Shown here: piece after piece, positions 6,728-21,686 of the stretch
Position numbering within the stretch: position 1 is the first letter of the stretch
Layout: each line of letters opens with the position of its first letter
Assembly: GCA_018268955.1 (NCBI GenBank)
Contig: JAFDVO010000003.1
Location: 202,580 to 266,579 of the forward strand
Reading direction: 5' to 3'
From: Acidobacteriota bacterium
Lineage (GTDB): Bacteria; Acidobacteriota; Vicinamibacteria; Vicinamibacterales; CAVVIG01
Length of the DNA: 64,000 bases
The notes under the pieces: model-generated
The model's input: only the letters and a program-made list of their open reading frames with translations
Told to the model about the DNA's origin: nothing
Databases searched by the model: none
Made by a program: the position numbers and the translations under genes

Positions 6728-8650
6728 ATGTGTGGAATCGCCGGCCGCGTCAACTTCCGTACGGGTCGCCCAGTCGATCGCGCCTCGCTCGCCGCGATGT
6801 GCGATCTCATCCGTCATCGTGGACCCGACGGTGAGGGTACTTGGGCCAACGGCGCCGTCGGCTTCGGGCATCGGCGCCTCGCCATCATCGACCTGTCACC
6901 CGGCGGACACCAGCCGATGTTGACCTCCGACGACCGGCTGACGATCACGTTCAACGGGGAGATTTACAATTTCGAGGAGTTGCGAGGCACCCTCGAAGCG
7001 CGTGGGCACCGATTCCGATCGCGTTCCGATACGGAGGTGATTCTCCACGCGTACGACGCATACGGGGTGAAGTGCGTCGACCACCTCCGCGGGATGTTCG
7101 CGTTCGCGATCTGGGATGCTCGTGAGCGCTGCCTGTTCGCCGCTCGAGACCGAGCGGGCAAGAAGCCGCTCTACTACCGTGAGGACGCGGACGGCCTGGC
7201 CTTCGCGTCAGAGCCAAAGGCGTTCCTCGCTGAGCCCTCGTTCGTGCCGCAGGCTGACCCGAACGCGCTGTTCCATTACCTCAGCCTGCAATACGTCCCC
7301 GGGTCGGAGTCTGCGTTCGCCGGCGTGAAGCGCCTGCCGCCCGGCCACTATCTCCTGGTGCAGGACGGGCGTATTGCGGTTGAGCGCTACTGGACCCTGC
7401 GCTACTCGCCGAAGCAGCGGGTGTCAGACGCCGAGGCGGAGGAACAGACGCTCGACCTTCTGCGCGAGGCGACGAAGCTGCGCCTCATCAGCGATGTGCC
7501 GCTTGGTGCGTTCCTGAGCGGCGGCGTGGACTCGAGCCTCGTCGTCGCGCTAATGGCCGAGACCGGCGGCGCACAGGTGAAGACCTTCTCGATCGGGTTC
7601 GAGGAGCAGGCCTACAACGAGCTGCCGTACGCCCGCCTCGTTGCGCAGCGCTACGGAACGGATCATCACGAAGACATCGTACGGCCCGACGCCCTTGCGC
7701 TGCTGCCCACGCTGATCTGGCACTACAACGAACCGTTCGCGGACTCGTCTGCAGTGCCAACCATGTACCTCGCGCAGATGACGCGGCGTCACGTGACGGT
7801 CGCCCTGAACGGTGACGCCGGGGACGAGAACTTCGCCGGATACAGCCGCTACGTGGCGAGTCTGCTCGCGGCACGCGTGGACCGCATTCCGCTGTCCCTG
7901 CGGCGCGTCCTCGCGACGCTTGCGGGCGGTGCGGCCGTGCCCAACACGCTGATCTCGCGGGCCCGCCGCTTCCTGCAGGCTGCGGCGGAGACCCCTGAGC
8001 GCCGCTACGCCAGGTGGATGTTCCACTTCTTCGACGTGCACAAGCGGCAGCTCTGCACCCCCGAGTTTCTGGCGCGCGTGTCCGCCCCCGATTCATCCAC
8101 GCTCTTCGAGCAGTGGTTTGCCGAGTCTCGCGGTGAGGCGTTCCTGGACGCCACGTTGTCTGTCGACGTGCGGAGTTACCTGCCCGACGACCTTCTGGTC
8201 AAGGTGGACATCGCGACGATGGCGCATGGCCTGGAGGGGCGGTCTCCGCTGCTCGATCACAAGGTGATGGAACATGCGGCGACCCTGCCCACGTCCCTGA
8301 AGCTGAGGGGGAGGGACAAGAAGTACCTGCTGAAGCGGATCGCGCGACGGTACCTGCCCGCAGACGTCATCGACCGGCCGAAGATGGGTTTTGGCGTGCC
8401 ACTCGATCACTGGTTTCGTGGCGAGCTCAACGGCCTCGCGCACGACGTACTGCTCGGCACCCAGGCGCGGCAGCGGGGATACTTCCGGACGTCTGAAGTC
8501 GAGCGTCTGCTTCGCGAGCACGAGCAGCGCGTTCACAACTGGCACTACCAGCTCTGGAACCTGCTCGTGTTCGAGTTGTGGCACCAGATGTTCATCGACA
8601 CGAGGCCGACGTGTGCTCCAGCCGGGCTCGCCGCCGGGGCCGCTGCGTGA
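6728..8650 (+). CDS. asnB: Asparagine synthase (glutamine-hydrolysing), AsnB-like
   Basis: A 640-residue two-domain amidotransferase. Cys2 of MCGIAG is the N-terminal nucleophile of the glutaminase domain, followed by RGPDGEG and NGEIYN. The synthetase domain has the ATP pyrophosphatase loop SGGVDSS at residues 264-270 and a C-terminal RSPLLDH segment. In primary metabolism it makes asparagine from aspartate and glutamine. Inside polysaccharide loci close relatives (WbpS-type) amidate uronic acid sugars, which would fit the nucleotide-sugar dehydrogenase at 899. Which role applies cannot be read here. The GTG of the flippase overlaps its stop codon. Confidence 0.9.
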   Translation: MCGIAGRVNFRTGRPVDRASLAAMCDLIRHRGPDGEGTWANGAVGFGHRRLAIIDLSPGGHQPMLTSDDRLTITFNGEIYNFEELRGTLEARGHRFRSRSDTEVILHAYDAYGVKCVDHLRGMFAFAIWDARERCLFAARDRAGKKPLYYREDADGLAFASEPKAFLAEPSFVPQADPNALFHYLSLQYVPGSESAFAGVKRLPPGHYLLVQDGRIAVERYWTLRYSPKQRVSDAEAEEQTLDLLREATKLRLISDVPLGAFLSGGVDSSLVVALMAETGGAQVKTFSIGFEEQAYNELPYARLVAQRYGTDHHEDIVRPDALALLPTLIWHYNEPFADSSAVPTMYLAQMTRRHVTVALNGDAGDENFAGYSRYVASLLAARVDRIPLSLRRVLATLAGGAAVPNTLISRARRFLQAAAETPERRYARWMFHFFDVHKRQLCTPEFLARVSAPDSSTLFEQWFAESRGEAFLDATLSVDVRSYLPDDLLVKVDIATMAHGLEGRSPLLDHKVMEHAATLPTSLKLRGRDKKYLLKRIARRYLPADVIDRPKMGFGVPLDHWFRGELNGLAHDVLLGTQARQRGYFRTSEVERLLREHEQRVHNWHYQLWNLLVFELWHQMFIDTRPTCAPAGLAAGAAA

Positions 8651-10137
8651 GGTTGTCTCTCGGCGAACACGTCTCACGCGCGCGAGCCACCGCCGGTTCT
8701 TCGGCCCTCTACTTCTCCACGATCATCGCGTCGCAGCTGACGTCGCTCCTGCTGCTGCCAATTCTCACGCGGTACCTCGGTCCGGAGGCGTTCGGCGAGT
8801 ACTCGCTCGTGCTGGCCGTCACCGGACTACTGGGGACCTTCGGCTCGGTGTGGGTCCGTAACGTCGGCATGCGGCTGTATTTCGACCACGTTGCCGACGG
8901 CCGGACGCGCACGTTCTTCTGGACCGCCGCAATGCTGCAGGCCGCCTCGATGGCCGCCGTACTGCTCCTGGCCTATCCGGTCGTCCGGCTGGCGGGCACC
9001 GCTGTTCCCCCGATGTTGTACGCATCGGCGGGGGCCAGCGTCATCGTCACCGACTTCTACTCGCTGGGCCTCAACACGTTGCGCGCCGGGCACCGGCCCG
9101 TCAGCTTCGGTGTCGCCGAGTGGACGAATTCCCTCGGGCGGCTGGCGATCACGTGGGCCGGACTCGCGGCCGGCTACCGGACGGCGACGATGCTCTTCGT
9201 CTGTGTGACCGCTGGCATGCTGCTGGCGTCCGCCGTGGCGGCGCACGGGCTGAGAGACCTACTAGTGGGGCGCGGCGGGCTCGACCGCTCGATGGCACGG
9301 GAGCTCGTCGTGCTGGGGATTCCGTCGATCCCGGGGTCGTTCGGCGGGTGGTTGATCTCGCTCTCCGATCGCGTGCTGATCGCGTACTTCCTCGACGTGC
9401 GGGCGGTCGGCATCTATTCCGCGGCGTACGGCGTGGCCGACCGTGCGGTGAACGGCCTGGCATCCGGCCTCTACATGTCTGCGGGCCCGGCCATTCTCCG
9501 CCGATGGGCGGAGGCTGGCGAGGACGCGGCAGAGACGATCGCCAGCTACCTGGCCCTCTACGTCTCGCTCAGCGTCGGCCCGTGCGTGCTGCTCGTGCTG
9601 CAGCGCGAGTTCGTCCTGCGGCTCCTCGCCGGAACCGAGTTCGGCGCGGCCGCTGCCGTGGTTCCGTGGGTTGTGGCAGGAACGTGGCTGGGCGGCGCGG
9701 CAACGTACCTGAATCGTCCGCTCGAGCTCTCGAAGCGCTTCGCGACGCTGTCGGGGCTCGCCACGGCCTCCGCCGTGGTGAATGTCCTGCTGAACCTCGC
9801 GCTCATCCCGACGTTCGGCGTCACTGGCGCTGCTGCTGGAACCTGTGGTGCGTTCGTCGGCCTGGCGTTGTTCTCGCGGTATCTCGCCGGCCAGTCACTT
9901 GTCATACCCCTTCCCTGGCGTGCCATCGTGCGGGCGCTTGTCGCGACCCTTGTCGCAGCGGGTGCCTCCACACTGTTCGCCTCGCCCTGGCTCGCCATCA
10001 CGGCCTTCTCGGCGATCTATGTCGGGGTGATGGCCATGCTGTGGCTCCGTGACCCTCGCTTTTCCGATTCGACGATGACCCTACGGCGGCAGAACGAGAA
10101 GGCTCGCGTCGAGCCCGACACAGACGCCCGACGCTGA
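8647..10137 (+). CDS. Oligosaccharide flippase (Wzx/MOP superfamily)
   Basis: A 496-residue protein of about 14 hydrophobic segments, beginning STIIASQLTSLLLLPILTR after a short basic N-terminus, the usual look of Wzx-like polysaccharide flippases. It would move undecaprenyl-linked oligosaccharides from the cytoplasmic to the periplasmic face. The GTG at 8647 overlaps the asnB stop (GTGA), which decides the start over longer in-frame choices inside asnB. It works upstream of the ligase/polymerase at 2230. The C-terminus is a charged cytoplasmic tail. Confidence 0.87.
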   Translation: MRLSLGEHVSRARATAGSSALYFSTIIASQLTSLLLLPILTRYLGPEAFGEYSLVLAVTGLLGTFGSVWVRNVGMRLYFDHVADGRTRTFFWTAAMLQAASMAAVLLLAYPVVRLAGTAVPPMLYASAGASVIVTDFYSLGLNTLRAGHRPVSFGVAEWTNSLGRLAITWAGLAAGYRTATMLFVCVTAGMLLASAVAAHGLRDLLVGRGGLDRSMARELVVLGIPSIPGSFGGWLISLSDRVLIAYFLDVRAVGIYSAAYGVADRAVNGLASGLYMSAGPAILRRWAEAGEDAAETIASYLALYVSLSVGPCVLLVLQREFVLRLLAGTEFGAAAAVVPWVVAGTWLGGAATYLNRPLELSKRFATLSGLATASAVVNVLLNLALIPTFGVTGAAAGTCGAFVGLALFSRYLAGQSLVIPLPWRAIVRALVATLVAAGASTLFASPWLAITAFSAIYVGVMAMLWLRDPRFSDSTMTLRRQNEKARVEPDTDARR

Positions 10138-10237: not shown

Positions 10238-10282
10238 AGGACCAGGTGAGGTGACGTGGGGCAGCTGGCTCCCCGTGATTCG

Positions 10283-11191
10283 CTATGCCGTAGGCGCGAG
10301 GAGGTCCAGTGTGCGGCCCGTGCGCCGCTCGAATACGCCCCTGTCGCGTACGGCGAGCAGATCCTCGCATCGAGTGGACACATAGCCCGGTCCAACCTCG
10401 GTCAGGTGCTGCTGATCGAAGCGAAAGAGCCGAAAACCCGCCTGGCGCAGGCGGGCATGCACGTCCGCGCAGGAGTAGCCGTACTTCGCGAAGTGCTCCT
10501 CCCAGGTCTCGATGAAGACGCACTGGACGCGAGGCAGCAGTCCGGTCGCTCCGTCGAGGACGAACTTCTCATAGCCTTCGACGTCGATCTTCAGGAGTGC
10601 GATCTCGGCCCCCGCGATCGGGAGGTCATCGAGCCGCACCACGCGGACCGTGTGTCCAGTCCCGGCGTCTGTTATGCGGTTGCGATCGTCCTGGCTCTCG
10701 TCCGAGAAGTGAAGCGTGGCTTCGTGCTCACCGAGAGCCACATTGAGTACCTCCACCTGCGACGCGCGATTCAGCCGCACGTTTCCCGAGAGATAGCCCG
10801 CAACGCGTGGGGACGGTTCGATCGCATAGACCCTCCCCGTCGGCCCTACCGCCACCGCACACGCGAGCGTGTACAGGCCGACGTTGGCACCGACGTCTAC
10901 GACGGTGTCACCGGGCCGCAGGTAGGAGCGAAACAGGTGCTCAACGTCGTTGCGCGTCTCGCCGGCATGGAGCCACAGCTCGAGCGAGATCGACGACGGG
11001 TAGAACCTGAGAGCGAACCCATGGCGCTGAATGGTGACCAGTGGAGAGAGGCCGGTGGCCATCAGGATCCGACCGAGCAGGAACCAGAACGGCTGTTCGT
11101 GGTGCCGCAGGGCCCACCAGTAGCGAACCAGTCGCGGAGCCGAACGGATGGTCTCTGCCTCGGCTGCCAGGGTGTCAGGAACGGAAGGCAT
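10283..11191 (-). CDS. FkbM family SAM-dependent methyltransferase
   Basis: A 302-residue enzyme with the SAM-binding motif VVDVGANVGLYTLA, an acidic EPSPRV segment and the FkbM signature LLKIDVEGYEKFVL. The family O-methylates sugars or other hydroxyls, so glycan methylation is the likely job in this locus. The ATG at 11191 is chosen because a minus-strand TATAGT box (11204-11199) lies 7 bases before it, which would give a leaderless message. A GTG at 11248 would add 19 residues of low-homology sequence and would place the promoter inside the gene. Confidence 0.85.
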   Translation of the reverse strand: MPSVPDTLAAEAETIRSAPRLVRYWWALRHHEQPFWFLLGRILMATGLSPLVTIQRHGFALRFYPSSISLELWLHAGETRNDVEHLFRSYLRPGDTVVDVGANVGLYTLACAVAVGPTGRVYAIEPSPRVAGYLSGNVRLNRASQVEVLNVALGEHEATLHFSDESQDDRNRITDAGTGHTVRVVRLDDLPIAGAEIALLKIDVEGYEKFVLDGATGLLPRVQCVFIETWEEHFAKYGYSCADVHARLRQAGFRLFRFDQQHLTEVGPGYVSTRCEDLLAVRDRGVFERRTGRTLDLLAPTA

Positions 11192-11198
11192 CCCATAG

Positions 11199-11204
11199 AC
11201 TATA
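11199..11204 (-). promoter_or_regulatory. -10 element of the FkbM gene, leaderless spacing
   Basis: The minus strand reads TATAGT, then 7 bases, then the ATG at 11191, so transcription would begin at or next to the start codon. The plus strand over the same bases reads TAGACTATAG, which could also serve the divergent GT2 gene at 11251. Confidence 0.45.
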
Positions 11205-11250
11205 GCCGGGGCCACGACGCGGGTGCGCGCTGGCCCACCCGAGTCCACAC

Positions 11251-12192
11251 GTGCACACGTCGCCTGTCAGCATAGGCATTACGACCTACAACCGCGCGCA
11301 CCTCGTCACTCGCGCGATAGACAGCGTACTGGCACAGGATTATCCCGTGCTGGATGTCGTAGTGGTGGACGACGGTTCAACGGATGGGACGCTCGGCGTC
11401 CTTCAGCGATACGACGGGGACCCGCGCGTGCGAGTGATTGCGCTGGGGCGCAATGGCGGAATCCCGGTGGCAAAGAACGCCGCGCTGGACGCGCTCACCG
11501 GCGAGTTCGGCGGCCTGCTCGACAGCGATGACGAACTGCTGCCGGGCGCCATTCGCTCGTGCGTCGAAGCGTTTCAGCAACTTGGGGATGCGGTTTCACA
11601 GGTGTTCGGGCACTGCGTCAGCAGTTCGACGGGCGCCGCTACCGGGTACGTCTCTCGGGCGCCCGGCTTCATCACCTATGAGGATGGCCTGTGTGACCGC
11701 TTTGGCGGTGAACACTGGCATCTGTTCCGCCGTGCCGATCTTGGGAGCCTGCGGTTCCACGCGGAAGCGCTGACGTCGGAGACATATGTGTGGCATGCGA
11801 TGCTGCGCCAGAAGCCCGCGTATCACGTTGGCGCTCCGCTCCGCCTCTACCATCAGAGTGGCGACGACCGGATTTCATCCGCTGCTGTCACCGCACGCCT
11901 GGCACGCGGCCGCATGATGGCCTACCGCGTGTACCTCGAGCGGTTCGGAGACGACGTTCGAGCGGCGTGTCCGCGCCGCTATTCGGAACTCGCGCAGGAG
12001 CTTGCCAAGTGGGAGAGTTGGTGCGGGGAGCGTCGCCGCGCCGTCAGAACACTGATTAGCGTGATGCGTGCCGGACCTGCAAGGGGATTCATGGGCGCCG
12101 TGGCAGTGACGGTGTTTCCCGCTGGCCTGCGTGACGCGGCCTATCGGTGGCGTGCCACGGTACGACCGCGGAAGGACAGTGCGGCCGGATGA
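11251..12192 (+). CDS. Glycosyltransferase family 2 (paralogue 1 of 3)
   Basis: A 313-residue GT-A fold inverting glycosyltransferase. It begins SPVSIGITTYNRAHLV, has the nucleotide-sugar motif VVVVDDGSTDGT and the metal-binding LDSDDELLPGA (DSDD). GTG start. It has no membrane helix, so it is cytosolic or peripheral. Its stop codon overlaps the ATG of the next GT2 gene (ATGA). It resembles the proteins at 12189 and 14229 in length and in the C-terminal half (GEHWHLFRRADLG; YLERFGDD), so the three arose by duplication; this one is the most diverged. Confidence 0.88.
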   Translation: MHTSPVSIGITTYNRAHLVTRAIDSVLAQDYPVLDVVVVDDGSTDGTLGVLQRYDGDPRVRVIALGRNGGIPVAKNAALDALTGEFGGLLDSDDELLPGAIRSCVEAFQQLGDAVSQVFGHCVSSSTGAATGYVSRAPGFITYEDGLCDRFGGEHWHLFRRADLGSLRFHAEALTSETYVWHAMLRQKPAYHVGAPLRLYHQSGDDRISSAAVTARLARGRMMAYRVYLERFGDDVRAACPRRYSELAQELAKWESWCGERRRAVRTLISVMRAGPARGFMGAVAVTVFPAGLRDAAYRWRATVRPRKDSAAG

Positions 12193-13103
12193 TCCCACCG
12201 CTGGTCAGTATCGTCATTCCGACGTTCAATCGGGCCTCCCTCGTGACCCGCGCGATCGAGAGCCTGCTCGCACAGACCTACGGCCCCCTCGACGTCATCG
12301 TCGTTGACGACGGCTCGACAGATGATACGGCGGCCGCTCTGGCGCCGTACGTGGCGCGCCGCCAGGTACGCGTGGTCAGGCATCCGAGCAATCTGGGCGC
12401 GACGGCGGCGAAGAACGCGGGCCTCGATGCAGTGCGTGGTGACTACGCCTCCATTCTCGACAGTGATGATGAGTTGGTCCCCGAGGCGGTACAGACGATC
12501 ATGGATGCGTTCGCGCAGGGTGGCGCCGGGGTCGGGATGGTGTTCGCGAACTGCGTGGATGCGGACACGGGCGAGTGGACCGGGACTGGCCTGGAGGCGT
12601 CCGGCCCCGTGACGTTTGCCGACGCCGTGAGCGAACGATTCAGGGGAGAGTTCTGGGGCATCTGGCGCACGGAGGTGCTCGGCGCGCGACGGTTCGATAC
12701 GCGCCTCGCTGGCGGCGAGTCGCTGGTATGGCACGACATGTACCGATCGACTCGCGTGTGGTACCTCCACGCCGCGCTGCGTCGGTACTACCGCGGATCA
12801 GCGGATCGGGTGTCGCGCCGCCAGCTCGACCCGGATCAGGCCGCACGGACCCGGCTGATTTACGAGTTGTACCTCGAACGTTTTGGTGAAGACCTGAAAC
12901 GCCTGGCACCGCACGTGTACGCCAAGAATCTTCAGGCGATTGCCCTGTGGCACATCCTGGGCGGCGAACGCTCCAGGGCGCTCGCGCCCCTGGCCGGCTC
13001 CCTCCGATACACGCATTCCCCGAAGCAGTGGCTCATGGCGATTGGAATGTGTGTGGTGCCTCGCTCGGTGCTGCAGCGTGAAGCGGAACGGCGTCGTGGC
13101 TGA
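12189..13103 (+). CDS. Glycosyltransferase family 2 (paralogue 2 of 3)
   Basis: A 304-residue GT-A enzyme with PLVSIVIPTFNRASLVTRAI, VIVVDDGSTDDT and ILDSDDELVPEA. The ATG at 12189 overlaps the preceding stop by 4 bases, and the end overlaps the next gene by 8, so translation is probably coupled across the whole run. The protein matches the 14229 product closely from end to end, including GEFWGIWR, SLVWHDMYR, YLERFGED and ALWHILGGERS. It would act as a cytoplasmic sugar transferase in repeat-unit assembly; donor and acceptor are unknown. Confidence 0.88.
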   Translation: MIPPLVSIVIPTFNRASLVTRAIESLLAQTYGPLDVIVVDDGSTDDTAAALAPYVARRQVRVVRHPSNLGATAAKNAGLDAVRGDYASILDSDDELVPEAVQTIMDAFAQGGAGVGMVFANCVDADTGEWTGTGLEASGPVTFADAVSERFRGEFWGIWRTEVLGARRFDTRLAGGESLVWHDMYRSTRVWYLHAALRRYYRGSADRVSRRQLDPDQAARTRLIYELYLERFGEDLKRLAPHVYAKNLQAIALWHILGGERSRALAPLAGSLRYTHSPKQWLMAIGMCVVPRSVLQREAERRRG

Positions 13104-14232
13104 AAGCGTGCCACACAGCGCCAGGCGCCTCACCCTCGTGGTCACATCCCTGGAAGCCGGCGGGGCCGAGCGAGTGATGGCGGCGCTGGCCAACGCGTGG
13201 TCTCAGGAAGGCCGTGACGTGACGCTCATCACCCTCCATCACGCGCGCAAGGATTTCTTCGCGCTCTCGCCCGCCGTCACCCGCCTCCAGCTCGATGTGC
13301 TCGGATCATCACAGGGGGTCGCCGACGCCGTGATGAGCAATATCCGTCGCGTGCGGGCGCTGCGGCAAGCGATCCGTTCCTCTGCACCGCATGCGGTCAT
13401 CGCCTTCACGGACCAGACAAACGTGCTGACGCTGCTTGCCACGCGCGGACTGCGGGTGCCCGTCGTCGTCTCCGAACGGATCGATCCGACGAGCCACGAC
13501 ATCGGACGCGCGTGGAAGGCCGCCAGGCGATGGGCGTATCCGATGGCGCGTGCCGTCGTGGTGCAGACCGAGTCGGTGGCGAACTGGGCGAGGACCATCG
13601 TTCCGGCCGCGCGCGTGCGTGTCATCCCGAATCCGGTTGCTTCCATCCGCCCAGCGGCCATTGGCGCTCGATCGCTGATGCCCCTCCCTGAGCTGCCAGC
13701 GAACTTCGTCGCCGCAATGGGAAGCCTCGGCGTGCGCAAGGGGTTCGATCGCCTGCTGCGCGCATTCGCGACAGCCACGTCGGATCGGCCGGGCTGGTCT
13801 CTCGTCATTCTCGGGGAGGGTGAGGAGCGGACCGCGCTGGAGGCTCAGGCAGCTTCGCTCGGCATCAGCACTCGCGTCATGCTCCCCGGGCTCATCGAGT
13901 ACCCAGGGCGTGTGCTCGAGCGGGCGGGGCTCTTCGCGCTCTCCTCGAGCAGCGAGGGTTTTCCGAACGCGCTGCTCGAAGCCATGAGCTGTGGCTGTGC
14001 TGTCGTCAGCTTCGACTGCCCGAGCGGACCGGCCGATCTCGTTCAGCAGGGCATCAACGGCGTGCTGGTTCCGCCAAACGATGAAGACGCGCTCGCCGCG
14101 GCGATCCGCTCCCTGATCGATGATCCTGCGCGACGGGCGGCGCTGGGGGCGGCTGCCCGGGACGTGAATCGCAGGTACTCGCTGGCGGCAGTGATGCACC
14201 AGTGGAATACGCTTCTGGAGTCGCTGGCATGA
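13096..14232 (+). CDS. Glycosyltransferase family 4
   Basis: A 378-residue GT-B enzyme with N-terminal LTLVVTSLEAGGAERVMAAL and the donor-site block SSEGFPNALLEAMSCGCAVV. The domain order and length are standard GT4. The GTG at 13096 is preferred because it overlaps the preceding GT2 gene by only 8 bases and homology begins about 10 residues later. It is sandwiched between two paralogous GT2 genes and its stop overlaps the ATG of the next (ATGA). Confidence 0.88.
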   Translation: MAESVPHSARRLTLVVTSLEAGGAERVMAALANAWSQEGRDVTLITLHHARKDFFALSPAVTRLQLDVLGSSQGVADAVMSNIRRVRALRQAIRSSAPHAVIAFTDQTNVLTLLATRGLRVPVVVSERIDPTSHDIGRAWKAARRWAYPMARAVVVQTESVANWARTIVPAARVRVIPNPVASIRPAAIGARSLMPLPELPANFVAAMGSLGVRKGFDRLLRAFATATSDRPGWSLVILGEGEERTALEAQAASLGISTRVMLPGLIEYPGRVLERAGLFALSSSSEGFPNALLEAMSCGCAVVSFDCPSGPADLVQQGINGVLVPPNDEDALAAAIRSLIDDPARRAALGAAARDVNRRYSLAAVMHQWNTLLESLA

Positions 14233-15176
14233 GCGCGCAGGAGGTGCCTCTCGTCAGCATCGCAATCCCGACGTTCAACCGCTCCTCGCTCGTGAGGCGC
14301 GCGATCGACAGCGTGCTCACGCAGACCTACCCCAACATCCAGGTCATCGTTGTCGACGACGGATCGTCCGACGACACCGTCGACAGGCTCGCCCCGTACG
14401 TCGAACGTCACCACGTCACGGTGATTCGGCATTCCCGGAACCGTGGAACGATGGCGGCCAAGAACACGGGAATTGACGCCATGCGCGGTGCGTTTGGCGG
14501 CATCCTCGACAGCGATGATGAATTGCTGCCGAATGCGGTCGAACGTCTAATGCACGTGTTCGACGTGTATGGAGGTGGGGTAGGGCTTGTGTTCGGCAAC
14601 TGCGTCGACCCGTCGACGGGAACGTGGACGGGGCTCGGCCTTCACGAGTCGTGCGAGGTGACGTTCGCGGACGTGGTGACCGGGAGGGTCTCTGGCGAAT
14701 TCTGGGGCCTCTGGCGTCAGGCCGTGCTCGGGCCGCGCCGGTTCGACCCGGAGTTGCCAGGCGGCAGCGAGTCCCTCGTCTGGCACGAACTCTACCGGCA
14801 CAGCCGCGCGTTTTACGTGCACGAAGTGGTTCGGCGGTACTCGCGCGGTGGTGCGGACAGTGTCTCGCGCGCGAACCTCGATCCGGTGCGTCTCGCACGC
14901 ACGCGGGCGATGTACGAGCGGTACCTCGAGCAGTTCGGCGATGACATGCGGCGGCTGGCGCCAGAGGCGTACGTGAAGCAACGGCAGCTGATCGCGCTCT
15001 GGCACCTGCTGGCGGGCGAGCGGCGCGCGGGCATTCGCCAGCTGTGGCTGGCGCGGCGCGCGGGAGGCGCCCTGCGGCAGCACCTGCTCGGGGCGGCGAT
15101 GGCGTGTCTGCCTGCGCCGGTGCTGCGTCGGGCGTTTCTCTGGCGATACGAACGCAACCTCAACCGTACCCGATAG
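14229..15176 (+). CDS. Glycosyltransferase family 2 (paralogue 3 of 3)
   Basis: A 315-residue GT-A enzyme. PLVSIAIPTFNRSSLVRRAI, VIVVDDGSSDDT and ILDSDDELLPNA are the family motifs, and GEFWGLWR, SLVWHELYR, YLEQFGDD and ALWHLLAGERR pair it with the 12189 protein. The ATG overlaps the GT4 stop. It is the last gene of the tightly overlapped glycosyltransferase run. The small differences from paralogue 2 suggest a different donor sugar or linkage in the same repeat unit. Confidence 0.88.
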   Translation: MSAQEVPLVSIAIPTFNRSSLVRRAIDSVLTQTYPNIQVIVVDDGSSDDTVDRLAPYVERHHVTVIRHSRNRGTMAAKNTGIDAMRGAFGGILDSDDELLPNAVERLMHVFDVYGGGVGLVFGNCVDPSTGTWTGLGLHESCEVTFADVVTGRVSGEFWGLWRQAVLGPRRFDPELPGGSESLVWHELYRHSRAFYVHEVVRRYSRGGADSVSRANLDPVRLARTRAMYERYLEQFGDDMRRLAPEAYVKQRQLIALWHLLAGERRAGIRQLWLARRAGGALRQHLLGAAMACLPAPVLRRAFLWRYERNLNRTR

Positions 15177-15235: not shown

Positions 15236-17458
15236 ATGATCTCGCTGCTCGCGGCCGCACTGCGCCTGCTCGCCATTGCCGCGGTGCTGGTGTGGCTGCC
15301 AGGTGTCATTGCCGCACGTCGTCCCCTTCGGCCGGTGCGCCTGCTGCACGTGCTCACGCTCGGTGCGTTCGTCCACGTTCTCGCCCTGGTGCTCACCGCG
15401 TTCGTCGCCGGCAGTGTGGCGACTGCGACGTGGCTGCTGCCGACCCTGACGTTCCCATGTGCGTTCCTCTTGCGCGCGATGCGACGGGTGGACGACACCT
15501 GGGATCCGCCGTCCCTGCGCGTCTGGCCTGCGCTCGGCGTCACCGGCATCGTGCTGCTTGCCGGCCTGATGCGGTGGTTCCACAACTTTCACTATGACGA
15601 CACGGCGCACCTCCTTTACCTGACGGAGCTGACACGCGAGGATCTGCCCTTTCCAGACCAGTTCTTCCTGCAGCTCAGCGCACTCAGGGTCCCGGGGCTG
15701 GGTGACGGTGCACTGATTCTCAGCCGCTATCCGTTCTGGGCGCTCTCGTACACGGTGCTCGCGCATCTGGCTCATGTAGTGCCGGGAGACGCCTACCTGT
15801 TGGTGGGACTCGGCGTGCTCGCACTCACGGCCGGACAGATCACGGCGCTCGCGTCGCGAGCCTGGTCACCAGCGGCAGGCGTGCTGTGGTTGCTGGGGGT
15901 GCTCGCGTCCGGGTTGTACTTCAGCGACAACCTCCTCAACTTCGGCGGCTATCCCTTTCAGATAGGGAAGCTGTTCCTGCTGCTCGCAGGCACCGCCTTC
16001 GTCACGGCGTGGGTGACGGGGGAGGCGGCTGTGCTCGAGAGTCTGTGGGTCGGCGTGTTCATTGCCCCGCTGGTGCATCCGAACAACGCCATCGGCGCCG
16101 TCTCCCTGATGGTGTTGGCCTCCGGTTTCGCGCTTGCGCGTCCGCACATCCGTCGGCCGTTTGCGATGGCGGCGGTCCTGGCTGGTGCGCTCCTGTGTGC
16201 GGCGACCGCCGGATCGCTGGCAACGGGCGGATTCCTGCAGTGGAGCGGCGCCGGCGGTCGCGAACGCGTGTACGACATCGTGCTCGCTCCAGAGCCTCCC
16301 GACTTATCGGCGGCGCCGCCACTGACGGGGATACAGCCCTCGCCATCCAGGCAGCCCCCCGTCCACGGCGCGCGGGACGCCGTGTTGCGGCGCATGCGGC
16401 TCTTCGTGCACCGAGGCGTGCCCTTCGAAGTCGTCGTGCCGATGATCGTCGCGATCTGCCTGTCGTTCGCAGCGACCCGCCTTCCCTGGCTCCCGCGGAC
16501 CATCCCGCCCGTGATGGCGGTGCTGATCGCGCTGGTGATCGTGGCCAGCGTCGCGGAGTGCGCCAGCGCGGTGCTGACGTCGGCCTACAAGCCCGGGTAC
16601 TTCATCATGCGGCACGCGCTCCAGGCGGTCGCACCCCAGCTGCCGGTCGATCGGCCGGTCGTCACCGATCCGATCACCGACATCCTCGGCCGGGCCGCAG
16701 GGTGGCCACTGATCGGGGAGCCACGGATCTCGCTCGAAGAGCAGACGGCGCTGATTGCGTTGTTCCGACCCGACGTCACGGGCCAGGCGCTCGCGGCGGT
16801 CCTCCGCAGTGTGGGTCGCTCGACGATTGTCGCCAACGAATGGATCCTCGGTCCAGAGCCGTCGCGGAAGCTCCTCGCGAGCGAGGCTGTGGTCGCGCGA
16901 AGCCATACCGGTGCGATCGGATTGCCCTCCGATCCGCTCGATGCGCCGCTCGCGGCGCTTGCGCGTGATGTGCGCGGCGGACGCATCCGCACGGCCATCG
17001 ACCAGGTCATGTCACTCGCACCACGCGCGCTGGGGCAGATCTCCAGAAACGCGGCGGTGGTGGTGTTCACCTACGATGCCGACACGACGGCGCCCCTGAA
17101 CGTCGCGACGCTGGGCCCACTGGTCCGCCAGTCGTCGAGCGATTCCGGTGATGGTGCGTTCATGAACGGCTTCGTGCTCACGGTCCCCGGGCCCTCGACG
17201 TGCGCGTCCCGCCTCTCCATCGACGTCGACAACGCAGCCTCGTTCCACTCGCGACTGCTGGTCGTGCCGCTCGACAGCTTGCCTCGCGCAGGGCGCCTGG
17301 CATTCGACCTCGGGCCGGGACGGTCCACGCTGCGGATGCGGCTGGACGCCCCCAACTGCGACGCTGCGCCAAAGTCCTTCCTGCTGCACACCGACTTCTG
17401 GTGGGACGCCAGGTTCACAGTCGAGTCGGCGCGCTGGGAAGTCGCCACCGCGCCCTGA
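15236..17458 (+). CDS. Large polytopic membrane protein, possibly GT-C-like
   Basis: A 740-residue protein with about 11-12 hydrophobic helices in the first ~450 residues and a soluble C-terminal part. The first large loop carries FHNFHYDDTAHLLYLTEL, an acidic motif placed where GT-C glycosyltransferases have their catalytic Asp. No family name is certain. The ATG at 15236 follows a GGAGG ribosome site with 4-base spacing. It lies between the glycosyltransferase run and the WecA-like gene, so polyprenyl-phosphate-sugar-dependent glycosylation in the periplasm is a reasonable guess, no more. Confidence 0.7.
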   Translation: MISLLAAALRLLAIAAVLVWLPGVIAARRPLRPVRLLHVLTLGAFVHVLALVLTAFVAGSVATATWLLPTLTFPCAFLLRAMRRVDDTWDPPSLRVWPALGVTGIVLLAGLMRWFHNFHYDDTAHLLYLTELTREDLPFPDQFFLQLSALRVPGLGDGALILSRYPFWALSYTVLAHLAHVVPGDAYLLVGLGVLALTAGQITALASRAWSPAAGVLWLLGVLASGLYFSDNLLNFGGYPFQIGKLFLLLAGTAFVTAWVTGEAAVLESLWVGVFIAPLVHPNNAIGAVSLMVLASGFALARPHIRRPFAMAAVLAGALLCAATAGSLATGGFLQWSGAGGRERVYDIVLAPEPPDLSAAPPLTGIQPSPSRQPPVHGARDAVLRRMRLFVHRGVPFEVVVPMIVAICLSFAATRLPWLPRTIPPVMAVLIALVIVASVAECASAVLTSAYKPGYFIMRHALQAVAPQLPVDRPVVTDPITDILGRAAGWPLIGEPRISLEEQTALIALFRPDVTGQALAAVLRSVGRSTIVANEWILGPEPSRKLLASEAVVARSHTGAIGLPSDPLDAPLAALARDVRGGRIRTAIDQVMSLAPRALGQISRNAAVVVFTYDADTTAPLNVATLGPLVRQSSSDSGDGAFMNGFVLTVPGPSTCASRLSIDVDNAASFHSRLLVVPLDSLPRAGRLAFDLGPGRSTLRMRLDAPNCDAAPKSFLLHTDFWWDARFTVESARWEVATAP

Positions 17459-17501: not shown

Positions 17502-19295
17502 ATGTTCCACCTGATCACCGCCTCGCTCGCCGCGTTCGCGCTCTCACTCGTGCTGGTGCCGCTCTGCCGCACCCTCGCACGCGGCTACGGGTTCGTTGCA
17601 ACCCCAAGGGCCGACCGCTGGCACGCCAGGCCCACGGCCCTGCTCGGCGGTGTCGCCATTGCGACGACGGTGCTGGCGCTGCATGTGACGTTCATTGGCG
17701 TCACCGGGCTTCCAATCCTGCTCGTCGCTGGCCTGGCGATGTTTGCCATCGGCCTCATCGACGACATCGTCTCGCTCAAGCCGGCGACGAAGCTGGTCTT
17801 CGAGATCGCCGTCGCCTCGTTCCTGGCGTTCTTCGGGTATCGCCTCGGCTGGGTGCAGTCGCAGACACTCGACACGCTGATCACCGTCTTCTGGATCGTC
17901 GGCCTGACGAACGCCTTCAACCTGCTCGACAACATGGACGGCCTGTGCGCCGGCCTTGCCGTCGTCGCCGGGACGGGCGTGCTGGCGGCGCTCTGGCTGA
18001 ACGGGGTGGCGGGCCCGATTGCGATCCACCTGGCCCTCCTGACCGGCGCCGCAGCCGGGTTTCTCGTCTACAACTTCAACCCGGCGTCCATCTTCATGGG
18101 CGACAGCGGCAGCCTCTTCCTCGGGCTGAACCTGTCGGTGATGACGCTGTCCTCACCGTCGACGGCGCACGTGTCGTCGAGCCTGATCTCGATCGTCGCC
18201 GCGCCGCTGCTCATCCTGCTCGTGCCGATCCTCGACACGACGCTGGTCACGGTGTCGCGCATCCTCGCCGGCCGCAGTGCGGCGCAGGGCGGCCGCGACC
18301 ACTCCTCGCACCGCCTCGTCGCCATCGGCCTCTCGGAGCGCAGTGCCGTGCTGGTCCTCTGGGCGCTTGGCGCTCTGGGTGGACTGCTCGGCGTCTCGCT
18401 CAAGCACTATCGCGGGGATCTGCCGAGCCTGGTCTCCGCGGTGTTCGTCATCGCCGCGATCATCTTCGGCGTCTACCTCGCGCACGTGAGGGTGTACGCG
18501 GAAGACGAGGCGACCCTGCAGCGCGCCGGACGCGTGACGCCGCTCGTCGTCCACTTCGTCTACCGCCGCCGTATCGCAGAGGTGCTGCTCGACCTCTGCC
18601 TCACCGCGATCGCGTACTACAGCGCGTATCGGCTGCGCTTCGGGAATCCCGGCGAGTTCGGCGGCTACTTCCCGCAGTTCCTGCAGTCGCTCCCGCTCGT
18701 GATGGGCGTGCAGCTAGTCAGCCTCTTCGCCGTCGGCGGCTACCGCGGCGTCTGGCAGTACTTCGGGCTGATGGACGGCGTCACGTTCGCGAAGGGCGTT
18801 GGGCTCGGGACGCTGCTGAATATCGCGGTGCTGACCTACGTGTACCGCTTCGAAGCCTACTCACGCGGCGTGTTCGTCATCTACGCGGCGCTGCTGATGC
18901 TGCTGCTGGCTGGGTCCCGCGCGTCCTTCCGCCTGATGAGCGAGTTCGCGCATCGACGCAACCAGCGTGGGTTGCGCGTCGTCATCTACGGCGCCGGCGA
19001 CGTCGCCGCCAGCGCCGTTCGCGACATCCTGAGCCGCCGCGAAGGGGCGTACCGGATGCTCGGCTTCATCCTCGAGGACCCGTCGATGGAGCGAGCCCAG
19101 ATGCAGGGTTACCCGGTCATCGGTAACTACCAGGCGCTGCTCGGCATGGTGGACGAGGGCGGAGTCGACCTGGTCGTGATCACGCAGCTGATCGACGTCG
19201 AACGCCTCGAGGCCCTGCGCGCCCGTTGCGTAGACCGCGGCGTGTCACTCGAACGTCTGCACTTCAGGCTGGACCAGCTCGTCGCGGCGTCCTGA
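17502..19295 (+). CDS. WecA/MraY-type sugar-phosphate transferase fused to a CapD-like region
   Basis: A ~597-residue membrane protein in two parts. Residues 1 to ~320 are a polyprenyl-phosphate HexNAc-1-phosphate transferase with IGLIDDIVSL, NLLDNMDGL, IFMGDSGSLFLG and DHSSHRLV, the motifs that bind metal, UDP-sugar and lipid. From ~345 on, four helices (from RRRIAEVLLDLCLTAIAYYS) and a nucleotide-binding fold (VVIYGAGDVAASAV) resemble the N-terminal half of FlaA1/CapD dehydratases, but the catalytic dehydratase domain is missing. It would start lipid-linked glycan synthesis. A TAGTAT box at 17478-17483 favours the ATG at 17502 over the GTG at 17484. Confidence 0.85.
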   Translation: MFHLITASLAAFALSLVLVPLCRTLARGYGFVATPRADRWHARPTALLGGVAIATTVLALHVTFIGVTGLPILLVAGLAMFAIGLIDDIVSLKPATKLVFEIAVASFLAFFGYRLGWVQSQTLDTLITVFWIVGLTNAFNLLDNMDGLCAGLAVVAGTGVLAALWLNGVAGPIAIHLALLTGAAAGFLVYNFNPASIFMGDSGSLFLGLNLSVMTLSSPSTAHVSSSLISIVAAPLLILLVPILDTTLVTVSRILAGRSAAQGGRDHSSHRLVAIGLSERSAVLVLWALGALGGLLGVSLKHYRGDLPSLVSAVFVIAAIIFGVYLAHVRVYAEDEATLQRAGRVTPLVVHFVYRRRIAEVLLDLCLTAIAYYSAYRLRFGNPGEFGGYFPQFLQSLPLVMGVQLVSLFAVGGYRGVWQYFGLMDGVTFAKGVGLGTLLNIAVLTYVYRFEAYSRGVFVIYAALLMLLLAGSRASFRLMSEFAHRRNQRGLRVVIYGAGDVAASAVRDILSRREGAYRMLGFILEDPSMERAQMQGYPVIGNYQALLGMVDEGGVDLVVITQLIDVERLEALRARCVDRGVSLERLHFRLDQLVAAS

Positions 19296-20192: not shown

Positions 20193-21686
20193 TTAGCGCA
20201 TGGGCGACGGCCGTCTCTGGACGACGCAGGCCTCGCCGAACTGGTAGAGCGGCAGGAGTCCTGCGGCGATCATGCGGGCGCACTCATCCGCGCCGAGCCC
20301 CACGCCGTGGGTCACGTGATAGGCATCAGCGGTGGCGTTGAACGTGTCGAGGTGCCCGTCGTGAATGGCCGCGAGCATCCTGTCACGTGCGGCAACCCGC
20401 GGTTCATTCGGCACATACGGGTTCGACCAGGTTGGGTTGACGCCCACGACGCGGTGGCCAGAGGGCGCGATCACCTCGAGCGTCAACCCTCTCGACCCAA
20501 GCACCACGGCATCGTCTGGAAGGGACTTGCGGAGGAACGTGGCTGTGGCATTCAGGTCGGCGCTGCGTTGCGCGGCGATCCCGCGGCCATAGACGAAGTC
20601 GAAGCGGTTGCGGTAGTGCGGCAGTCTCCAGGCGACCAGCGCCAACACGATCGCAGGTACGAGGACCGCCAACCACTGCCGCGCGACCCGCTCAGCGACC
20701 CAGGCGAGCGCAGCCCCAGCGTACAGCGTGCACGCCGCAAGCGTGTAGCGCCAGAAGTGGAACGTCGGCACGAAGGCCGGCAAAGTCGTCCCCTCCCGCA
20801 ACAGTCCGTAGAGTGTCAGCACGCTTGCCGTCGCCAGCCACGCGTAGGCCACTCGTCGTCTTGTGATCACGATGCCTGCGGCGGCTGCTGCGAGCACCAG
20901 ACCGTTGGCGGCGAACGTGGCCGGCATGCCAGCGCGCGTTGTCGGCGCCCAGGTCCACGCCATCGGCGCAGCGTTGACCACGTGGAGGTGGTAGTGCACG
21001 ACGATCGACCAGAGAAACGGGCTGGCCACGAGCGCAGCGGCCACGCCTGCAAGCGCAAGACGACGAGGTTGAAGCATGGCGACGGCGATGCCGCCAAGCA
21101 CGATCGCGGGCGCGGTGTGTGCCAGGAAGGTGAGCCCGGCGAGTGCGCCGGCGCCAATGGCGGCAGTGTCCGTGTCGGCCACCGCTGCGGCATCGAGCGC
21201 AATCACGCCGAGGAAGAAGAGCCCCTGGCTGAAGGTCGCGACGAACAGCCAGGGGGAGTACGTCGCGCAGGTGAGCGCCGGGTCGGTGTCGCAGTTGACG
21301 AAGACGAGCAGGAAGAGCGACAGGAGCGCGGCGGGACGACCGGCGACCCGTGCACAGAGGAGGTAGAACGCGATCGGCCCGAGCAGGTTCAGCCACGGGC
21401 CGCCCTGCACGTGCACGAGCGGTGCGGTCGCGCGGGTCGCGAGCGAGACCAGTGCGACGAGCCACGGCACGAGCGGGTTGTACCAGACCCACTCTCCCCG
21501 GTAGAACGGGTCGCTCAGCGGATGGCCGTTGAGCGTCGCCTGTGCCTGCGCGATGTCCCGGAAGTGATCCCCGTCGTACGGCCACGTGAGCCCGGCGACC
21601 GTGGCAACCGCCATGGACAGCGCCGCCGCAATCACCACGGCAGCGGCGACATCGACCAGGAGCTGAAGAAGACGGCCTCGCCGCAC
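20193..21686 (-). CDS. Polytopic membrane protein, probable GT-C glycosyltransferase
   Basis: A 497-residue protein with around ten hydrophobic helices. The first periplasmic loop after helix 1 has WPYDGDHFRDIAQAQ, an acidic pattern like that of GT39/GT83-type GT-C enzymes, followed by the WYNPLVPWL segment common to such proteins. The C-terminal ~130 residues are soluble. It would use polyprenyl-phosphate sugars at the outer face of the membrane, but substrate and target are unknown. GTG start. It is placed between thiS and thiG with no obvious link to thiamine, so its presence there looks accidental. Confidence 0.7.
   Translation of the reverse strand: MRRGRLLQLLVDVAAAVVIAAALSMAVATVAGLTWPYDGDHFRDIAQAQATLNGHPLSDPFYRGEWVWYNPLVPWLVALVSLATRATAPLVHVQGGPWLNLLGPIAFYLLCARVAGRPAALLSLFLLVFVNCDTDPALTCATYSPWLFVATFSQGLFFLGVIALDAAAVADTDTAAIGAGALAGLTFLAHTAPAIVLGGIAVAMLQPRRLALAGVAAALVASPFLWSIVVHYHLHVVNAAPMAWTWAPTTRAGMPATFAANGLVLAAAAAGIVITRRRVAYAWLATASVLTLYGLLREGTTLPAFVPTFHFWRYTLAACTLYAGAALAWVAERVARQWLAVLVPAIVLALVAWRLPHYRNRFDFVYGRGIAAQRSADLNATATFLRKSLPDDAVVLGSRGLTLEVIAPSGHRVVGVNPTWSNPYVPNEPRVAARDRMLAAIHDGHLDTFNATADAYHVTHGVGLGADECARMIAAGLLPLYQFGEACVVQRRPSPMR

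Follow-up and report, generated by a model that had tools for sequence, protein, structure and literature searches.

The large monotopic phosphoglycosyltransferase WbaP and the dehydratase PglF, members of two functionally unrelated enzyme classes, share an accessory module; the WbaP study calls this sharing 'puzzling' and proposes a nucleotide feedback (PMC10942596). According to the same study, the homologous domain of WbaP is stabilised by UMP, UDP, and UTP and destabilised by UDP-Gal, the full-length enzyme is inhibited by UMP with an apparent IC50 of 4.1 uM, and most dimer contacts lie in this domain; poly-PGT domains are tabulated as 'PGT only' (PMC10942596, Table 1). Myxococcus EpsZ is reported to have a domain of the same kind without the hairpin by which WbaP dimerises; for this enzyme, a response regulator has been put forward as the factor that favours the active dimer (PMC12802240).

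The gene considered here lies in a 64,000-nucleotide stretch of Acidobacteriota DNA (assembly GCA_018268955.1, contig JAFDVO010000003.1; hereafter the window) and encodes a polytopic phosphoglycosyltransferase (polyPGT) fused to the first half of a CapD/FlaA1/PglF protein whose dehydratase domain is missing.

Architecture and conserved residues of the fused protein

The gene is a single uninterrupted frame, by open reading frame and translation (Table 1). Pfam assigns its product Glycos_transf_4 (PF00953) at residues 72-217 (E 4.7e-31, 108.4 bits against a cut-off of 27) and CoA_binding_3 (PF13727) at residues 438-561 (E 4.7e-15); the same scan of the protein returns no Polysacc_synt_2 (PF02719), no Bac_transf (PF02397), and no third domain of any kind. 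In NCBIfam, residues 10-329 match ECA_wecA and residues 362-583 match the N-terminal part of WcaJ/EPS_sugtrans, with no hit reaching its cut-off; for WecA proper (TIGR02380) the score is 100.8 bits against a cut-off of 326, which places the protein outside that family.

Table 1. Features of the fused gene and of its polysaccharide gene run, in window coordinates.
Feature	Position	Strand	Evidence
Asparagine synthetase-like amidotransferase	6728..8650	+	PF00733; TIGR03108 633 bits, below cut-off 817
Wzx-type flippase	8578..10137	+	PF01943; HfsF-like below cut-off
Four glycosyltransferases (GT2, GT2, GT4, GT2)	11251..15176	+	Pfam
Fused gene, 597 aa	17502..19295	+	ATG 17502, stop 19293-19295; alternative start GTG 17484; homologues with same length and linker
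PolyPGT half, residues 1-330, WecA/MraY fold	17502..18491	+	PF00953; MraY 5ckr
Asp pair D87-D88, polyPGT active site (presumed)	17760..17765	+	D88 in 32/32, D87 in 31/32 fused sequences
Catalytic motif N140-LLDNMDG, residues 140-147	17919..17942	+	N140, D143, D146, G147 in 32/32 fused sequences
D201 of PASIFMGD	18102..18104	+	31/32 fused sequences
H267-SSHR, variant of HxHH donor-site motif	18300..18314	+	DHxSHR in 30/31 main-clade fused sequences
Linker, residues 331-354, low model confidence	18492..18563	+	pLDDT < 50 at 337-354; 29% median pairwise identity
CapD-type four-helix membrane bundle, residues 355-488	18564..18965	+	Predicted helices 347-379, 383-410, 423-448, 455-486; tree with CapD
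YRGxWRY loop (R415, G416, W418; Q at 419 in window protein)	18744..18758	+	R415, W418 in 32/32; WRY common to CapD profile
Rossmann domain (PF13727 part), residues 489-597; gene stops here	18966..19292	+	Pfam, model, structure match
Glycine loop GAGD, residues 497-500	18990..19001	+	G497 in 32/32, G499 in 31/32, D500 in 28/32 fused sequences

The AlphaFold model (32 homologues; pLDDT 84.7, pTM 0.82) shows, in this order, ten MraY-type helices, a weak linker (337-354), four long helices (347-486), and a small terminal Rossmann domain. In VIA-align comparisons with PDB chains, residues 1-304 match MraY (5ckr; Z 30.1, 280 aligned, rmsd 2.8), residues 489-592 match 3nkl (Z 12.3, 101 aligned, rmsd 3.1), and residues 352-588 match WbaP (8t53; Z 10.9, 212 aligned, rmsd 11.7), the last of these with an rmsd so large that the relative placement of the domains must differ between the two proteins. 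The C-terminal half modelled alone (pLDDT 86.8) gives the same neighbours: 3nkl at Z 12.0, Rex chains at 9-11.7, and WbaP at 11.6. The original prediction, made from the DNA alone, of a WecA-type initiating transferase fused to a CapD-like half without its dehydratase is thus borne out by Pfam, model, structure matches, and the tree described below.

Domain score, MraY fold, and catalytic Asp, Asn, and His residues all place the N-terminal half among the polytopic PGTs (WecA/MraY, PF00953). Of 32 fused sequences, 31-32 retain each of D87/D88, N140, D143, D146, G147, D201, D245, H267, and H270, and 30 retain D266; the active-site role of D87-D88 is one we take over from MraY/WecA. Two motifs are altered: in the main fused clade (31 rows), LDNMDG is found in 29 and DHxSHR in 30, the latter in place of HxHH, which we take to be the carbohydrate (sugar donor-site) motif of WecA. 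HxHH itself is retained in all five fused rows outside the main clade and in 14 of 32 unfused rows. Since DNMDG and DHxSHR also occur in 15 of 32 unfused polyPGTs each, both changes predate the fusion.

The C-terminal module comes close to the catalytic half in conservation, with median pairwise identities of 45% for the catalytic half, 41% for the four-helix bundle, 36% for the Rossmann domain, and 29% for the linker. Its (near-)invariant positions are those of the loop YRGxWRY...D, of GSRxxFRL ending the fourth helix, of the glycine loop YGAGDgG, and of GFxDDDP after the second strand; the acidic run that ends this strand is kept among fused modules. CapD N-terminal halves have WRY, GAG, and FvDDd too, and WcaJ/WbaP-type ones less so; the window protein departs from the consensus at Q419, A502, L524, and E525. 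Among 89 full open reading frames, linker length varies from -5 to +7 aa relative to the window protein and the median length of the tail past the module is 2 aa, the tail staying at or below 73 aa in 88 of them; the remaining one carries a GT4 domain. The model has no elements after the last Rossmann strand, so that a counterpart to the β-hairpin by which WbaP dimerises appears to be absent from it.

Distribution and ancestry of the fusion

Full-length matches, among those listed, amount to 68 rows in 66 of the 396 genomes of the phylum; with G330 set aside as a fusion, this being really two neighbouring genes, 67 rows in at least 65 genomes remain, the window's own included (in one of the 65, G088, a stop codon interrupts the frame near residue 130). 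Of 80 loci kept from a scan of GTDB contigs, 62 join the two halves in a single frame, again among the matches listed, and their record titles place them in nine phyla: Acidobacteriota (21), Thermodesulfobacteriota (15), Chloroflexota (5), Planctomycetota (3), Rokuibacteriota (2), Omnitrophota (2), Nitrospirota (1), Bacteroidota (1), and Binatota (1), with five 'Deltaproteobacteria' loci labelled Myxococcota and six unlabelled loci standing outside this phylum count. Most fused loci come from metagenome bins, with a single bin each behind the Bacteroidota and the Binatota entries. The C-terminal half is missing from the other 18 kept loci, among them L110, whose contig ends there. Four frames with apparent stops in the first search (L227, L228, L229, L231) are actually intact; L230 has a genuine internal stop. 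The domain search that had been suggested along with the original prediction thus recovers the same fusion in homologues from nine phyla, and the joined form is an old, stable architecture, not a local oddity. A literature search, in which subscription papers were thinly covered, returned no description of a PF00953-PF13727 fusion; sequence databases may well list the architecture.

Variants occur among the relatives. One 1043-aa frame (L010:121-3252, minus strand) is a triple fusion of polyPGT, CapD-type module, and GT4 glycosyltransferase. Two loci of one genus, L012:1492-2964 (minus) and L020:1474-2940 (plus; this match holds two stop codons), keep the four-helix bundle and stop before the Rossmann domain; together with the unfused close relatives L047 and L053, they indicate that loss of the module is possible. 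Another type of fused polyPGT from the phylum joins a WecA-type half to a C-terminal tail of about 170-200 aa (L034:454-2034, L039:942-2489, and L049:1017-2567, all minus strand); the two tails scanned, those of L034 and L049, have no Pfam match and look faintly GAF-like by eye, and the ten rows with such tails form one clade in the polyPGT tree.

A profile built from the fused C-terminal halves, against which fused rows score high by construction, gives CapD N-terminal halves (n=28) a median score of 142 bits, with a range of 69-208, and WcaJ/WbaP-type ones (n=22) a median of 62 bits, with a range of 32-92. The ranges overlap at the low end, where four divergent CapD proteins score 69-81; the trees still separate the groups. 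In a FastTree of 143 modules, 93 fused ones fall on one side (support 96) and 22 WcaJ/WbaP-type ones on another, with 28 CapD between them. In a more careful tree of 84 rows, all 37 fused modules (hand-picked for spread from the 93) form one clade (100/98), and fused and CapD modules group together (100/98), apart from the WcaJ/WbaP-type, of which the long-branched L183, L187, and L198 were left out. Trees and medians include matches covering at least 170 profile positions, a filter that dropped 11 of 33 WcaJ/WbaP-type loci (L004, L136, L180, L181, L186, L188, L190, L195, L196, L200, L201; L188 was dropped as a duplicate of L002) as well as an incomplete CapD in L132; the profile does not pick up CapD-like proteins that lack the membrane half, and these stand outside the counts. 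As judged from these sequences, the origin of the module is on the CapD side, not on the WcaJ/WbaP side, and the C-terminal half is related to CapD as originally proposed.

The AU test rejects neither a sister position of CapD relative to the fused modules (p 0.49), to which CapD may instead be ancestral, nor a placement of the divergent fused modules (L042/L043 and L112/L121/L132, with L109) outside the main clade (p 0.26). In a tree of the polyPGT halves (36 fused, 32 unfused), 31 fused and three unfused rows share one clade (100/99), and five fused rows, L042/L043 and L112/L121/L132, group elsewhere. These stray halves would mean that the module moved onto other polyPGTs, or that halves were exchanged; they might also reflect several separate fusions, against which stands the single clade of the modules. 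Two specific sources were considered and rejected: the genome's own WcaJ/WbaP-type enzymes fall into the other clade (L002 in the careful tree), and a gene pair like that of L044:216-3311 (minus), where a polyPGT and a complete CapD adjoin as separate genes on one strand, has the order required for fusion, but its polyPGT lies outside the fused clade, on a long branch.

Genomic context and proposed function

The fused gene is the last of a run of polysaccharide genes, in the order UDP-glucose dehydrogenase, ligase/polymerase-like protein, amidotransferase (with a homologue in the loci of three of four relatives examined), flippase, four glycosyltransferases, a 740-aa protein, and the fused gene; RmlD-like and aminotransferase genes lie upstream of the window. 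Three proteins in or beside the run are without a Pfam match: 740 aa at 15236-17458 (plus), 339 aa at 10256-11275 (plus), and 497 aa at 20193-21686 (minus), of which the 740-aa and 497-aa proteins look membrane-bound by eye. The genome encodes two PF00953 proteins only, the fused one and one that is MraY-like on reading its sequence; it further encodes four PF13727 proteins, three of them WcaJ/WbaP-type, and a single strong PF02719 match, which lacks the CapD-type membrane half.

In other fused loci, the genes directly upstream (37 of 39 picks scanned, the two longest being left out) comprise 11 nucleotide-sugar epimerase/dehydratase types, 10 GT4, 6 AIRS-type, and 3 LptF/G; the 29 downstream picks, all scanned, share no sugar theme. 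Picks were made by reading-frame length, with no gene caller. In 19 fused loci the immediate upstream neighbour, on the same strand, encodes a UXS-like nucleotide-sugar enzyme: 17 of these belong to the 84 loci with 1 kb or more of upstream sequence, and the other two have a partial gene. This neighbour recurs in several phyla (for example L089, L091, L082, L090, L060), its frame often overlapping the fused gene or ending a few bases away. These neighbours are 55-70% identical across phyla to the query enzyme, and the closest solved proteins are UDP-glucuronate decarboxylases (E 4e-57); the four scanned carry no NCBIfam name above cut-off. The gene is on the opposite strand in L113 and elsewhere in L114, L086, and L094; in the window's own genome a homologue (63% identity) is located away from the fused gene, on a different contig.

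The supply of undecaprenyl phosphate is limited and peptidoglycan synthesis draws on it as well, so that the first transfer onto it must be controlled; polyPGTs also release UMP. The fused protein is the predicted initiating enzyme of a Wzx/Wzy-type polysaccharide pathway, whose N-terminal half would take a sugar-1-phosphate from a UDP-sugar, place it on undecaprenyl phosphate, and release UMP. The C-terminal half, which corresponds to a CapD-type dehydratase that has lost its catalytic domain and keeps the membrane bundle and the Rossmann domain, may have been reused for control and assembly: at the cytosolic face it would sense uridine nucleotides (the product UMP, or UDP-sugars), set the rate at which the scarce carrier is committed, and probably help to keep the enzyme in its oligomer. 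We infer uridine-nucleotide sensing because the homologous WbaP domain responds to nucleotides, and the EpsZ proposal suggests that a partner protein could also act on the module. The original suggestion that the extra half may sense a nucleotide or sugar and regulate chain start is thus in line with the published behaviour of the WbaP domain, and its alternative, a docking unit, is possible as well. Counted in favor are the union of both halves in one frame, the catalytic Asp, Asn, and His residues kept in 30-32 of 32 sequences, the conserved module with its glycine loop and acidic strand end, its single clade joined to CapD, and the position of the sole non-MraY-like PF00953 protein of the genome at the close of a polysaccharide run. 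Counted against it are the Rex NAD(H) sensors as the closest solved folds of the Rossmann part after 3nkl (Z 9-11), which make NAD(H) a possible ligand, the apparent absence of the dimer hairpin from the model, the losability of the module, and the four deviations of the window protein from consensus. We would put the chance that the C-terminal half is a regulatory and assembly module on the committing enzyme, responsive to uridine nucleotides or UDP-sugars, at about even.

Bundle and Rossmann domain could instead be a docking scaffold that holds the enzyme to itself or to the next enzymes (nucleotide-sugar enzymes, the first glycosyltransferase) and senses nothing, a reading we regard as possible, though somewhat unlikely. 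The triple fusion L010, which runs past the module into a glycosyltransferase, the close-lying UXS-like genes, and the two genomes that retain the membrane bundle alone would all fit it; the conserved glycine loop and acidic strand end, however, suggest a ligand pocket, the homologous WbaP domain responds to nucleotides (PMC10942596), and an extra domain is present in just 1 of the 89 full frames.

The candidate ligands are UMP, a UDP-sugar, or NAD(H), the last because the best solved folds for the Rossmann part after 3nkl, whose depositors named it UDP-D-quinovosamine 4-dehydrogenase, are Rex NAD(H) sensors. The glycine loop and the acidic end of the second strand would also suit an NAD(H)-binding module, acting as a Rex-like redox sensor or in a catalytic step on the lipid-linked sugar. 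Yet the Z-scores of 8-12 reached by Rex and other NAD-binding chains are common among Rossmann folds, catalytic residues were not identified in the module, and the WbaP screen pointed to uridine nucleotides (PMC10942596); we therefore consider this reading improbable.

That the module is a functionless remnant of a WecA-CapD gene fusion seems very improbable: it can be lost, and in 2 of 28 CapD loci (L044, L206; flanks of only about 1.5 kb) a polyPGT gene does immediately precede a complete CapD in the same orientation, but the L044 polyPGT is outside the fused clade, and occurrence in nine phyla, a constant linker, and conservation near the level of the catalytic half are not the pattern expected of a dead remnant. 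An artefact, be it a frameshift, a chimeric assembly, or a pair of genes mistaken for one, is ruled out for practical purposes by the one open frame, the near-constant linker, and the recurrence of the architecture at full length among the matches listed (at least 65 of 396 genomes; 62 of 80 named loci); nothing specific speaks for it beyond the proof from G330 that adjoining polyPGT and CapD genes exist.

Returning to the regulatory module, a wider proposal may be ventured, tentatively: the CapD-type module could be a general uridine-nucleotide feedback part on every class of UDP-sugar-spending enzyme that starts surface glycans (dehydratases, monotopic PGTs, polytopic PGTs), and the main fused clade, with its changed donor site (LDNMDG, DHxSHR) and recurring UXS-like neighbor, may prime its chains not with the customary N-acetylhexosamine but with another unit, such as a pentose derived from UXS.

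Comparison with known enzymes

With WecA, TagO, and MraY (PF00953), the fused protein shares its entire N-terminal half, that is, the fold, the Asp pair, NxxDxxDG, D201, and the His motif; unlike them, it continues into a 250-residue C-terminal module, and its main clade has DHxSHR for HxHH and LDNMDGL for IDGLDGL. With CapD, FlaA1, PglF, and WbpM (PF13727 and PF02719), the nearest group in both tree and profile, it shares the four-helix bundle and Rossmann domain, whereas it lacks the PF02719 dehydratase and carries the module behind a polyPGT. With the large monotopic PGTs WbaP and WcaJ (PF13727 and PF02397), it shares the combination of a PGT with an accessory module of the same kind and, as predicted, the type of reaction and the product UMP; their catalytic fold, in contrast, is unrelated and monotopic (PF02397), their module sits in front of it rather than behind, and the fused module belongs to another clade and, in the model, has no counterpart to the WbaP dimer hairpin.

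The fused polyPGT is thus a third, structurally unrelated enzyme to carry the accessory module of WbaP and PglF, and it separates the job of this module from the monotopic catalytic fold. Should control by UMP or UDP-sugars follow the module into a polyPGT, the idea of feedback would hold generally; otherwise the role of the module would be structural. As the module is cleanly separable at the linker, the question is directly testable in this protein.
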